Source: a virus
Strand: one strand, 5' to 3'
Virus record (IMG/VR): IMGVR_UViG_3300010399_000054
Coordinates: 1 to 43,250 of that record
DNA: 43,250 nt
Shown one piece after another: positions 5,376 through 41,044 of this stretch (position 1 is the first letter of the stretch; each line of letters begins with the position of its first letter). The translations under genes were made by a program, and so were the position numbers. The notes under the pieces were generated by a model, which was given only the letters and a program-made list of their open reading frames with translations, did no database searches and had not been told where the DNA came from.

Positions 5376-5477
5376 TTGGCCACGGTACCCGATAACTCTA
5401 TTTTACGTAATATACAGTGTGCGCGCATAAGCAGAATCAATGCCCTTACGTTTAGTTGTTAAACCAACATCTTAAAG
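5376..5477 (-). promoter_or_regulatory. Gene-free 102 bases with leftward promoter-like element
   Basis: TGTATATTAC on the minus strand gives a -10-like TATATT at 5414-5409, about 27 bases before the DUF3653 gene's predicted transcript reaches its ATG. No convincing -35 lies at 17 bases. The region is AT-rich compared with its surroundings and contains a short inverted repeat (GTTTA/TAAAC) near 5450. This is the only sizeable break in the leftward operon between 8767 and 1880. Confidence 0.4.
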
Positions 5478-6035
5478 TTATATCGTCAGTTTTGCGACAG
5501 TAGACAATCTGTCTGAGCGCAGACTGGCGATCCGCTGCTTACGTTGCGTTGTGATGTAGCGACAGACGGTCGCGACATGGATCCCGAACTCGGCGGCGCA
5601 CTGCTTAAGCGTGGCGCCTTCTCGGCGCCTCTGCCACAGTCGCTGCATCTGTTCATGCGCTAGTGAGTAGGGGCGCCCGAGGTTGCCACGCTCATCCGCA
5701 GCGGTATTGGTCCAACGGTCCACCATATTGTCGGCACGAGAGCCGAGATACATATGATCGGGGTTACAGCAGATCGCCTGTAGCTCACACACCTGCTTGC
5801 TCTTATGGTTAACGCACAGTCCATCCCGTATAGGACCGTGGGTGAGAATCCATGCTTTGCGACTCGAATGAATCGCCAGGCTGTCGAGCGTGGTCAGCCC
5901 GTGACCGCTCGGCTTGGTATAGCCCAGCCACGGCCAGCATTCCTCGGGGGAACCCTTCAGGACCTTGTCCCAGAATCGCCGCTGCTGTCGCATATTAATG
6001 ACTAGATCACGTGGAACATCTTTTTCAGCGGTCAT
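5478..6035 (-). CDS. HNH homing endonuclease with C-terminal HTH (185 aa)
   Basis: The central part has the HNH_3 layout: ECWPWLGYTKPSGHG (about 32-46), IHSSRKAWILTHGPI, then VNHKSK...CCNPDHMYLGSRADNM (about 75-102), with metal-binding His/Asn/Asp and paired Cys. A C-terminal helix-turn-helix (ATLKQCAAEFGIHVATVCRY, about 141-160) would give site recognition. GAGGG lies upstream of ATG 6035, and the gene is ATGA-coupled to its neighbour. This is probably a free-standing selfish element lodged in the early operon. Confidence 0.8.
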   Translation of the reverse strand: MTAEKDVPRDLVINMRQQRRFWDKVLKGSPEECWPWLGYTKPSGHGLTTLDSLAIHSSRKAWILTHGPIRDGLCVNHKSKQVCELQAICCNPDHMYLGSRADNMVDRWTNTAADERGNLGRPYSLAHEQMQRLWQRRREGATLKQCAAEFGIHVATVCRYITTQRKQRIASLRSDRLSTVAKLTI

Positions 6036-9850: not shown

Positions 9851-9922
9851 TTCCTCCCCGTCCACACAGCCGCGTAATGGCGAGGTGCTACCCGTCGAAG
9901 ATCGGCAGCCGGGGAGATCCTC

Positions 9923-10237
9923 GTGAACCAACTGGATTTGGTCGAGGAAATCAACCGTCGAGTGCATTTAGACGGAATCACCTATTCACCCGAATTCGAT
10001 TACGAGCGTTTAGGTGCGCAGCTAAAGCGGGTTTTCTCAGTCATTCGGGATGGGCACTGGTACACGCTCCGAGAGCTTTCCCACATAACGGGGGATGCTT
10101 CCGAAGCCGCTATTAGCGCTCGTCTGCGGGACTTACGGAAACCGAAGTTTGGGGGCTTTCAGATCGACCGACGCCGACGGGGTGACCCGAAGCTCGGGAT
10201 CTGGGAGTACCAAATGAAAAACCCCCGGTGGAAGTGA
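9923..10237 (+). CDS. Winged-helix DNA-binding protein (104 aa)
   Basis: Residues about 28-85 resemble a winged helix: LGAQLKRVFSVIRDGHWYTL, RELSHITGDASEAAISARLR, then a wing (GGFQIDRRRRGDPKLGIWEY). GTG 9923 has GGGAG six bases upstream. It sits where lambda carries cII/O, between the early terminator and a folded gene-free stretch. A role as replication initiator or regulator is possible, but I cannot tell which. Confidence 0.65.
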   Translation: MNQLDLVEEINRRVHLDGITYSPEFDYERLGAQLKRVFSVIRDGHWYTLRELSHITGDASEAAISARLRDLRKPKFGGFQIDRRRRGDPKLGIWEYQMKNPRWK

Positions 10238-10251
10238 TCCATCCGGGGGTT
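10220..10251. terminator. Strong hairpin at the end of the winged-helix gene
   Basis: AACCCCCGG (10220-10228) pairs with CCGGGGGTT (10243-10251), and TGGA/TCCA pairs inside it around AGTGA. On the plus strand only TTCT follows, but on the minus strand the hairpin runs into TTTTTCATTT. It therefore looks better as a leftward terminator, or as the first element of the folded region that follows. Confidence 0.5.
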
Positions 10252-10500
10252 CTGGTAGCGCTGAGACTTTCACGGAACGTGGAAAGTATTAACCAGTTTC
10301 GATCGGATCACAAGGGTCGCACTCCCGGAATACGTGCTGGCTTGTACGCAAGGTCGTACTCAGTCGATAGAGACCAACGCTAAAGGCTGAATTCCGGGCT
10401 CTGCTGACCCAATTGCACCCCGGTCGTAGCGGAACCCCACGAGGTGGGGGCCTGAACAGGGCAGGGCTACCTTAGTACTCCCATACCGGGGGGAAAGGGG
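10252..10500 (+). ncRNA. Gene-free, highly structured region; candidate structured RNA
   Basis: No open frame of any credible kind crosses these 250 bases. Nested complementary arms are visible. ACTTTCACG pairs with CGT-GGAAAGT around GAA (10266-10287). CCCGGAAT 10324-10331 pairs with ATTCCGGG 10391-10398 and encloses GTACG/CGTAC (10344-10359). CCCCGG 10418-10423 pairs with CCGGGG 10486-10491 and encloses CCCCAC-GAG-GTGGGG (10435-10449). I do not recognise it as a known RNA class. Strand is assumed from the flanking genes. An origin of replication is an alternative. Confidence 0.5.
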
Positions 10501-10522
10501 TTGAATTTTGTCTGGAGGTTTT

Positions 10523-10759
10523 GTGATTACGACTGGCTACGGTTTTGCGTTCTATCGTTGGCACCGACTTGTATCGGAGAACGTCGTTAGATGTCAGCGC
10601 GGTAGCATTCACCTGATGCTCTGGACCGGTGAGAAATATAACTGCTGGGAACGATTTGCCTCTATGCAATCCGATTCTGCTCCAAAGCTTCTTCCCACAG
10701 AGCCTGTAGGCAACAGGGCACCTGGGAGCGATCGAACGCTTCCGGATGGGCAAAGATGA
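10523..10759 (+). CDS. Possible small hypothetical protein (78 aa)
   Basis: GGAGG lies four bases before GTG 10523, and an in-frame TTG at 10508 is also possible. The first 50 residues look protein-like (YGFAFYRWHRLVSENVVRC, LMLWTGEKYNCWERF), while the last 25 look like translated noncoding sequence. It follows the structured region. I treat it as doubtful. Confidence 0.35.
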   Translation: MITTGYGFAFYRWHRLVSENVVRCQRGSIHLMLWTGEKYNCWERFASMQSDSAPKLLPTEPVGNRAPGSDRTLPDGQR

Positions 10760-10819
10760 TGGCGAGCAATCTGTTCATGGGCTTATCCACGGTTCCCATT
10801 GTAAAGGTTGCCTAAGCAA

Positions 10820-11137
10820 ATGTCATACCCGCCTAGCTACTTTTCCCGAGAAAAAAAGATCAAAACTCATGGGCAGATGCTGGAGACGCTGAAAACCCGC
10901 ACTCAGAGCTGTGCCGAGTCGCGGTCTTTGGAGGGTGAAATCTGGCTCGCCAAACGGTTTCAGCAGCAATGCGGTCAGGACATCTTTGATGGCATCACCG
11001 ATTCCACCGAGCGGCGAATTCGCTTGAGGGCTGGGATCAAGGAGCAGGGGTTGGAATGCGAGATTGTCGGAGCCAAGGAAGGTAAGCCCATTAACTGGCG
11101 CGAAGCCTTCCAGCGTCTCTATCACGAGGCTCTATGA
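10820..11137 (+). CDS. Hypothetical protein upstream of RusA (105 aa)
   Basis: ATG 10820 is used, and an in-frame TTG lies four codons earlier. The product begins MSYPPSYFSREKKIKTHG and is charged and helical, with a central KTRTQSCAESRSLEGEIW segment. It overlaps the resolvase gene by 4 bases (ATGA), which suggests co-expression. Similar small proteins precede rusA in other phages, but I know no function. Confidence 0.6.
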   Translation: MSYPPSYFSREKKIKTHGQMLETLKTRTQSCAESRSLEGEIWLAKRFQQQCGQDIFDGITDSTERRIRLRAGIKEQGLECEIVGAKEGKPINWREAFQRLYHEAL

Positions 11138-11546: not shown

Positions 11547-11966
11547 ATGTACGCTAGAAGCGCTAGGAGAGCATTGGCTGGCGAACTCGAGGAAGGTGCA
11601 CCTGGAGTACTTCCTCGCGAATTAATACCCGTGGATCGCATCCTGCAGCGCTGGGACGTGTCGATTGGTACCGGACTGCCATCTGAAGCATGGGATGATA
11701 ATCCTCGCTGCTCTAGACCCACGCCACTGGATGACGATACTGCGATCGTGGTCGATCAGATTATTCTGAAGCTCCCTCCGCGTACTAACCAAGTCATCGT
11801 GGCCTGGTATCGGACTCCACAACCTACCCAGGTGATTGCTCGTCGCCTGAACATGTCTTCCCGCAATTTGGAAAAGGGGCTTAGGGTCTGCCTAGGCTTC
11901 GTGCGATGGCGTTTTGAGGAAAGTGACCACTTACCCCTTGTACGATTGTTGCGGGTTCAGGTATAA
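11547..11966 (+). CDS. Q-like late antiterminator (139 aa)
   Basis: The C-terminal half has a sigma-region-4-like helix-turn-helix (LDDDTAIVVDQIILKLPPR, then PTQVIARRLNMSSRNLEKGL) as in phage Q antitermination proteins. Its place is decisive: last early gene, directly followed by a promoter-like sequence and a strong terminator ahead of all late genes. Residues 1-60 are not conserved in any way that I recognise. Another regulator of late transcription is the main alternative. Confidence 0.6.
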   Translation: MYARSARRALAGELEEGAPGVLPRELIPVDRILQRWDVSIGTGLPSEAWDDNPRCSRPTPLDDDTAIVVDQIILKLPPRTNQVIVAWYRTPQPTQVIARRLNMSSRNLEKGLRVCLGFVRWRFEESDHLPLVRLLRVQV

Positions 11967-39562: not shown

Positions 39563-40792
39563 CTATCCCTTCACGCAAACAATCTGCTTCAACTCGGCCA
39601 CGATCTCGACCAAATCGCTCTGATTGGCCATCACTTCGTCGATCGACTTGTACGCGCCCGGAATCTCGTCGATCACGTCCAGATCCTTTCGGCATTCCAC
39701 ACCCGCAGTCTGCTCCTCCAAATCCGCCTTCGTGAAGCGCTTCTTTGCCGCACCTCGGCTCATTTTTCGGCCAGCGCCGTGCGAGCAGGAACAGAACGAC
39801 TCAGGATTACCTTTGCCACGCACAATGAAGCTGCGCGCACCCATTGAGCCTGGAATGATCCCCATGTCGCCTTCGCGAGCCCTGACCGCTCCCTTGCGCG
39901 TCACGTAGACGTTCTGCCCGAAGTGGTTCTCGATCGCGACGTAGTTGTGATGACAGTTCACCGCATGCTCGGTTGTGACAACCGGCAGGCCCAGCGACTC
40001 CGACAGCGCCTCCTTGGCCCGCTCCATCATGATGGTGCGATTGGTCATCGCGTAGTCCTGGGCCCACGAGAGCGCCTTCCAGTACACGCCGAACAGTGGC
40101 GAAGCCTCCGGCAGGTAGGCGAGATCCGGATCCGGCACCGTAATGTGCCAATCCTCCATCGCTTCCTTAGCTTTCTCGATGAAGTAGGTCCCGATGCGGT
40201 TCCCGATCCCACGCGAGCCTGAGTGCAGCATGAGCCATACGCAGCCTTCCTTGTCCAAGCAGAGCTCCACGAAGTGGTTACCGGTCCCGAGCGAGCCGAG
40301 TTGCCGCGGACCTTGATCCACCCGGTTTAGTACTTTCGGCTGATCCTCGAGAAGCTCGACGAACCGCGGGTCGATGCGCAGCCGCTCCCACTCCGAAGTG
40401 ACCGCAGCAGGCGATTGCTCTCCCCATGCGCCGCGGTCGTTGGGGCCGCCATTGTCGGTGCGCCCATGTGGAATCGCCTTCTCTAGCGCGCTGCGTACGC
40501 CCGCAAGGCTGTCGGGCAACTGTTCAGGCGTGATGTTCAATTTGTGCGCGACCATGCCACAGCCGATGTCTACGCCGACGGCAGCGGGCACAATAGCGCG
40601 AATGGTCGGGATCACCGAGCCAACGGTCGATCCCATACCCCAATGGACGTCCGGCATCACTGCGACGTGCTTGTGGATGAAGGGGAGGGTGGCGAGGTTG
40701 TGAAGCTGCTGCATGGCAGACTCTTCGATGTCCGTCGTCCACACCTTTACCGGCGCAGAGCCATCGTCTTTGAATGTCGTTAGAACTGGCAT
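39563..40792 (-). CDS. rtcB: RtcB-type RNA ligase (409 aa)
   Basis: RtcB joins RNA ends carrying 2',3'-cyclic or 3'-phosphate to 5'-OH using GTP and Mn. All hallmarks are present: MPDVHWGMGSTVG (46-58), VGVDIGCGM (72-80, Asp75, Cys78), GTGNHF (169-174), HSGSRG (190-195), TEHAVNCHHN (274-283) and SHGAGR with guanylylated His338 (337-342). Length equals E. coli RtcB. GAGGAG precedes ATG 40792. The gene neighbours two phage tRNAs, which suggests repair of tRNAs cut by host anticodon nucleases. The neighbouring sequence is more GC-rich. Confidence 0.95.
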   Translation of the reverse strand: MPVLTTFKDDGSAPVKVWTTDIEESAMQQLHNLATLPFIHKHVAVMPDVHWGMGSTVGSVIPTIRAIVPAAVGVDIGCGMVAHKLNITPEQLPDSLAGVRSALEKAIPHGRTDNGGPNDRGAWGEQSPAAVTSEWERLRIDPRFVELLEDQPKVLNRVDQGPRQLGSLGTGNHFVELCLDKEGCVWLMLHSGSRGIGNRIGTYFIEKAKEAMEDWHITVPDPDLAYLPEASPLFGVYWKALSWAQDYAMTNRTIMMERAKEALSESLGLPVVTTEHAVNCHHNYVAIENHFGQNVYVTRKGAVRAREGDMGIIPGSMGARSFIVRGKGNPESFCSCSHGAGRKMSRGAAKKRFTKADLEEQTAGVECRKDLDVIDEIPGAYKSIDEVMANQSDLVEIVAELKQIVCVKG

Positions 40793-40867: not shown

Positions 40868-40945
40868 CTGGGTGTAGCTCAGTCTGGTTAGAGTACCGAG
40901 CCCGGAACTCGGGGGCCGCAGGTTCAAATCCTGCCACCCAGACCA
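40868..40945 (+). tRNA. tRNA, probable Pro (anticodon CGG), CCA encoded
   Basis: The cloverleaf is complete: acceptor CTGGGTG/CACCCAG, D-arm GCTC/GAGT, anticodon stem CCGAG/CTCGG with loop CCCGGAA, T-arm GCAGG-TTCAAAT-CCTGC, discriminator A and encoded CCA. C1:G72 and A73 fit proline tRNAs. The loop has C at position 33 and A at 37, where U33 and G37 are expected, so the identity and activity are less certain. Confidence 0.8.
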
Positions 40946-40960
40946 ACCTTCTCAACAAAT

Positions 40961-41044
40961 GCCCGCGTGGCGAAATGGCAGACGCGCTGAGCTTAGACCT
41001 CAGTGCCTTCGGGCGTGTGGGTTCAAGTCCTACCGCGGGCACCA
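40961..41044 (+). tRNA. tRNA-Leu (anticodon UAG), CCA encoded
   Basis: This is a class II tRNA with acceptor GCCCGCG/CGCGGGC, the typical TGGCGAAATGGCAGACGC D-region, anticodon stem CTGAG/CTCAG with loop CTTAGAC (UAG), a long variable arm, T-arm GTGGGTTCAAGTCCTAC and encoded ACCA. It lies 15 bases after the first tRNA, so both are probably cut from one transcript. It would read CUA/CUN codons. Confidence 0.9.

Follow-up and report, generated by a model that had tools for sequence, protein, structure and literature searches.

A pseudoknotted RNA stands in the place of the initiator gene in lambda-like phages and is a candidate replication origin

A single-copy pseudoknotted RNA occupies, in 11 distinct phages, the position between cro and a small leftward open reading frame (ORF) at which related phages carry a replication initiator gene. 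In the λ-like phage replication modules known to us, the central component is without exception an initiator protein that binds iterons. The existence of a covarying RNA family on the + strand is close to certain. That this RNA may be the working part or core of an RNA-based replication origin, as an R-loop or primer RNA, is a reading we hold to be evenly balanced between right and wrong. For the broader proposal, that a lambda-like soil phage group dropped the initiator protein and the iteron origin and starts replication with its own folded, pseudoknotted RNA, the balance tips slightly to the negative.

The window, that is the whole stretch of DNA analysed, consists of one virus record, 43,250 bases long, with terminase, portal, head and recombination genes and a repressor/cro-type switch. 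Its gene-free stretch, between a winged-helix (wHTH) gene and a short ORF starting with GTG at 10523 (Table 1), was originally predicted to be strongly folded and to hold no credible frame, and indeed none of 200 shuffles folded as well on either strand (z = −3.45 and −3.49 for the + and − strands). The element extends from ~10210 to ~10505 and measures ~300–440 nt across the family. The further suggestion that it is a novel structured RNA held up as well, with compensatory changes and a pseudoknot found, no conserved protein encoded and no Rfam family matched. Across the whole window, no Rfam 15 family reached its gathering threshold; the element and its L031 counterpart gave chance matches only at E ≤ 5, and the elements of L089, L093, L097, L099 and L100 gave no match. 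Group I and group II introns, RNase P and HEARO were rejected as identities, having no Rfam support. A literature search covering part of the literature returned no description of such an element. Judged from its sequence, the RNA is a large pseudoknotted phage family outside Rfam that appears to be previously undescribed.

Table 1. Features of the structured RNA element and its surroundings, in window coordinates.
Feature	Position	Strand	Remarks
59-bp block	9856..9914	.	96.6% identical to L038:2483-2541; probable left boundary of the swapped module
wHTH gene, phrog_25381	9923..10237	+	Same place only in window and L101
Structured RNA element	10210..10505	+	Rightward early transcript; 10 relatives, covariation; covariance model (CM) R1 match of 97.6 bits, not independent because the training set included the window
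Hairpin 1	10220..10251 (arms 10220-10228 / 10243-10251)	+	9 pairs, 93.9% paired, 3 with two-sided changes
Pseudoknot	10234-10240 with 10305-10311	+	GTGATCC (hairpin 1 loop) with GGATCAC; 7 pairs, 94.8% paired
Hairpin 2	10252..10296 (outer stem 10252-10256/10292-10296, inner hairpin 10266-10287)	+	
Most conserved segment, AGTTTCGATCGGANNNCAAGG	10295..10315	+	Exact pattern in 8 viral contigs, all with the element
Closing pairing	10297-10300/10493-10496	+	TTTC/GAAA; long-range; weak alone, single U-G change
Variable hairpin P3	10344..10359	+	GTACG/CGTAC; different fully paired arms in 7 members
P4	10363..10387	+	GTC/GGC with U-G pair in 7/7; TAG/CTA to TGG/CCA
P5	10394-10398/10419-10423	+	CCGGG/CCCGG; covaries, CCAGG/CCTGG in L097 and L101
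G-rich conserved 3' end, GGGGGGAAAGGGG	10488..10500	+	Alignments A3, A7
Shine-Dalgarno and GTG start (10523) of short downstream ORF, TTTTGTCTGGAGGTTTTGTGAT	10506..10527	+	
Small leftward ORF, 38 aa, MNRLLAIIFAHPEAFDRSQVPCCLQALWEEALEQNRIA	10665..10778	−	Conserved by tblastn
Leftward promoter-like site	10798..10826	−	ATGACA-17-TACAAT; convergent with rightward operon

The terminase, used as bait, gave 79 loci. One of these, L031, shares 10210-10257 (87.5%) and 10506-10527 (100%) with the window, but not the wHTH gene. Further relatives were recruited by a 20-mer search (L089), by the pattern of the most conserved segment (the 8 viral contigs of Table 1) and by a second pattern (L099, L100 and L101). 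As a result, the element was found in 10 other phage contigs from IMG/VR; L095 duplicates L089. When 93 sources were searched with CM R1, only the known carriers matched, the next match having E=0.06. Nine of nine records held exactly one copy each, and 14 further relatives had none. When 84,980 bacterial and archaeal genomes were scanned once for the exact pattern, a single chance match came up, and no direct DNA similarity to phages or plasmids was found. Two candidate carriers, L091 (20-mer match) and L098 (genome match), were rejected as chance matches. As protein baits, wHTH, exonuclease and RusA recovered no relatives useful for the element; the RusA scan yielded L002, later an initiator carrier.

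The 5' domain is shared by all carriers and covaries. In its alignment (A5, 11 sequences), 28 pairs were 91.9% satisfied and 11 of them showed two-sided changes. The covariation score was 0.279, compared with 0.114±0.016 in shuffled alignments (0/500 as high), and sliding the partners abolished the signal; the alignments were built without structure, the pairs, however, being picked with the same sequences in view. Both hairpins predicted here, 10220-10251 and 10266-10287, were confirmed, the former by covariation and the latter by a hairpin kept in relatives of wholly different sequence. The outer stem of hairpin 2, with two-sided changes in 3 pairs, had been missed, as had the pseudoknot and the closing pairing. 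Four pseudoknot pairs carry two-sided changes, the arms reading GTGATCC/GGATCAC in the window, GAAGTCC/GGACTTC in L031 and GAAAGCC/GGCTTTC in L101, and the 3' partner segment follows GATCGG. The 3' end of the wHTH gene overlaps the 5' arm of hairpin 1, with the stop codon (10235-10237) in the loop. Members that lack the wHTH gene have an extra short hairpin ~25 nt upstream of the element (L031:3560-3585, L089, L092, L096, L097, L099 and L100) with compensatory changes (TCGCC-TTC-GGCGA / TCTCC-TTC-GGAGA / TCGCG-TGC-CGCGA); its identification as a UUCG tetraloop was dropped, the loop being TTC.

The whole 3' domain is common to the window, L092, L094, L097, L099, L100 and L101, and other 3' domains stand behind the same 5' domain in L031/L089, L093 and L096. 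In the shared form, 19 pairs were 100% satisfied, 4 with two-sided changes, and the core helices scored 0/500 among shuffles. The predicted pairing at 10344-10359 was upheld, its arms reading GGACG/CGTCC, GAACGG/CCGTTC, TCAGGT/ACCTGA or TCACGT/ACGTGA elsewhere. Two others, 10324-10331/10391-10398 and 10418-10423/10486-10491, were unsupported because their strands belong to the covarying stem P5. The hairpin proposed at 10435-10449 recurs in L099 and L101 and is absent from the other relatives. At its 3' end the window element shows a moderate excess of G (84th percentile), and relatives vary in this respect, a point against the origin reading.

The RNA is assigned to the + strand because, when the supported helices are read on it, G-U wobbles exceed A-C cells (19 vs 2); these cells are not independent, and the distinct pairs (8 vs 2; sign test p=0.11) favour the + strand without being significant alone.

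Among the relatives that share the terminase, the site bounded by cro and the small leftward ORF is taken by either the RNA (11 phages) or an initiator (L002, L033, L037, L038 and L042), never both. An HTH_36 gene occupies it in these five; L002 gave no match to the small ORF, and its HTH_36 gene has cro on one side and the RusA-side genes on the other. The initiators of L033 and L038 match the PHROG 'replication initiation protein' (E 1e-34), and four iterons, at 21–32 nt spacing, lie inside the initiator gene in each of L038, L033, L042 and L002, the same layout as in λ ori. This accords with the original prediction, which put the stretch at the position of the lambda origin and replication genes and noted that this genome lacks them: relatives have an O-type initiator and a four-iteron origin there. 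More distant relatives carry other initiators (L017, initiator and DnaB-like; L021, O-like and P-like; L022; L023). At the swap place of RNA carriers, no iterons were found and repeats were at background level at most; elsewhere in the covered parts of their records, no four-copy repeat cluster was found but one, in the second half of G002. In L137 (G014), an initiator-bearing relative, a cluster of more than 10 copies of CGACCCGTCC/ACCCGTCCCC repeats lies at 5441-5719.

The 59-bp block stands just before the gene start in both the window and L038, and is shared although their terminases are only 54% identical. It is probably a boundary used in modular exchange, and its presence in both phages indicates that one module replaced another between shared boundaries.

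No substitute initiator was detected in the RNA carriers. They gave no match to Pfam HTH_36, DnaB_C, IstB/DnaC, DUF1376, D5_N or DNA_pol_A (PolA), and none in tblastn with seven replication proteins of relatives. The PHROG families matched by 72 of their early rightward ORFs number 17, and none is a replication initiator; a wider scan of 118 early ORFs likewise gave none among the 25 most frequent of 69 matched families, with the caveat that rapidly evolving initiators can escape profile searches. One phrog_1347 match in an RNA carrier (L114:14756-15106) was not counted, as it covers a different part of the profile than the L017 initiator does, and the g10823-like gene was rejected as a substitute, being present in both kinds of phage. 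Eleven RNA carriers without an initiator against 8 non-carriers with one would arise by chance with a probability of 1.3e-5 if the phages were independent, which they are not: shared ancestry leaves fewer independent exclusion events than the counts suggest.

To the right of the element, the small leftward ORF is kept in 11/11 RNA carriers and in the initiator carriers L033, L037, L038 and L042. A −10-like box lies 16–28 nt before it in 10 of 13 relatives, against a background of 7% at random places. A transcript predicted to start from the promoter-like site would run antisense through the element and end at hairpin 1, which on the − strand forms an intrinsic-terminator-like fold followed by GGGGGTTTTTCATTTGG, a U-tract conserved among relatives. 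The small protein itself follows the pattern M..LLxLIxxxPEAFxxTQVPCCLRGHWxAAL and has no PHROG match.

The RNA takes the place of the initiator gene and the origin, and is most simply read as providing the origin function itself. Priming from an R-loop, as in ColE1, is the best-known route by which an RNA origin dispenses with an initiator protein. By analogy, RNA polymerase from the early rightward promoter would transcribe the element, whose pseudoknot and two 5' hairpins would fold on emergence from the polymerase, and the G-rich 3' part would remain hybridised to the template as an R-loop. The processed 3' end of the RNA could then serve host enzymes as a primer for the leading strand, as happens with ColE1 RNA II and at T4 oriF. 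The convergent leftward transcript, starting before the small ORF and extending to hairpin 1, would be antisense to the whole element and may limit or time firing in the manner of RNA I (ColE1) or pO/OOP (lambda). A 3' domain that differs between classes is odd for a primer end and counts against the primer reading. No cluster of DnaA boxes was found; there is one TTATCCACG at 10783, and box-like sites are no commoner than chance. The GC skew of the window dips slightly around 8-10 kb, where the genes also switch direction, and it was discarded as non-discriminating.

The best-surviving alternative, though an unlikely one, is that the element acts in cis on the early rightward operon, either as a processive antitermination element (HK022 put/nut-like) or as a leader for the next gene. 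It lies on the sense strand after cro and before the delayed-early genes, comparable to nutR/putR, and no N-type protein was recognised. For a leader, a Shine-Dalgarno sequence and start codon stand directly behind the element and are the same in three phages, the site being identical in L031 and, over its first 20 nt, in L089; against it, the downstream ORFs differ between phages. The put sites of HK022 number two, one each for the left and right operon, and are ~70 nt long with two stem-loops (PMC9378689). As a structured RNA made within the early rightward transcript by a temperate-like phage, put resembles the element, but the element is present once per genome, is 300-440 nt long and is pseudoknotted; it was not filed as put because put is smaller, two-stemmed and present twice. 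A cis-acting role would also leave the mutual exclusion of the RNA and the initiator/iteron module unexplained.

The leftward signals permit another reading, which we consider improbable: the functional RNA would be an OOP-like antisense transcript that ends at hairpin 1 and controls the wHTH gene, in the cII position, or the early operon. The conserved − strand terminator-like hairpin and U-tract overlap the 3' end of the wHTH gene, and together with the leftward −10 box they stand at the place of lambda OOP (PMC3985674). However, the wobbles favour the + strand, the wHTH gene that would be silenced is missing from most relatives, and the small leftward ORF and promoter are present in RNA-lacking phages too. 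OOP is, moreover, short and acts against cII, unlike the element.

An equally poor prospect is a trans-acting RNA (an sRNA or an RNA-protein particle) released by cleavage of the early transcript and acting on host or late genes, the place that it shares with the initiator module being due to coincidental hitch-hiking during modular exchange. Its large size, pseudoknot and variable 3' domain are reminiscent of other large ornate RNAs, but this reading does not account for its fixed position or for its replacing the origin module one for one, and on the + strand the scan found no terminator-like hairpin where the element ends. That the hairpins act as DNA, as a single-strand initiation site or protein-bound cruciform origin, is very improbable: inverted repeats can occur in origins and the position fits, but a pseudoknot between a loop and a distant segment and strand-biased G-U exchange are typical of RNA. 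If replication should not be the role, there would still be a large pseudoknotted phage RNA family outside Rfam with a clear position and testable partners.

Two side observations concern other genes. A NusG/RfaH-like gene (PF02357; PHROG transcription antiterminator) in L097 (6536-7033), L092 (5329-5826) and L101 (11057-11548) takes the position of the Q-like gene of the window (11547-11963), so that late regulators of two kinds are exchanged here. On the − strand of the window, an RtcB-type tRNA ligase gene (39563-40792) adjoins tRNA-Pro and tRNA-Leu genes (40868-40945, 40961-41044), possibly a repair answer to host tRNA cleavage.

Compared with known systems, the proposed RNA origin has one of its closest counterparts in ColE1 RNA II/RNA I. 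Both have a structured sense transcript of several hundred nt and no initiator protein found, and the conserved leftward promoter and terminator signals at the element would correspond to the convergent antisense transcript of ColE1 with its terminator hairpin. In contrast to ColE1, the element is embedded in a phage early operon. In ColE1, priming by DNA polymerase I starts from a persistent R-loop that RNase H cuts. A blastn search of 72,556 plasmids (E<=1) gave no match to ColE1-type origins, and no similarity to Rfam RNAI was found. In the λ ori region, pR and pO converge around ori, and pO activity affects replication (PMC3985674). The element shares with it the early-operon place, a convergent leftward promoter signal and, where the post-cro gene ends, a terminator-like hairpin in the leftward direction; O and the iterons are absent in RNA carriers. 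T4 oriF and oriG support RNA-primed synthesis from an R-loop; for these origins a promoter and an unwinding element suffice, R-loop formation is independent of specific sequence and the replisome is T4-encoded (PMC3016281). Priming of a phage origin by an early or middle transcript, as proposed for the element, is the common feature, and conservation of the RNA structure itself sets the element apart. Were the origin reading true, the mode would resemble such transcript-primed origins, the novelty would lie in the RNA and in its position within a λ-like module, and the related phages would form a natural set for comparing origin firing by protein with origin firing by RNA.
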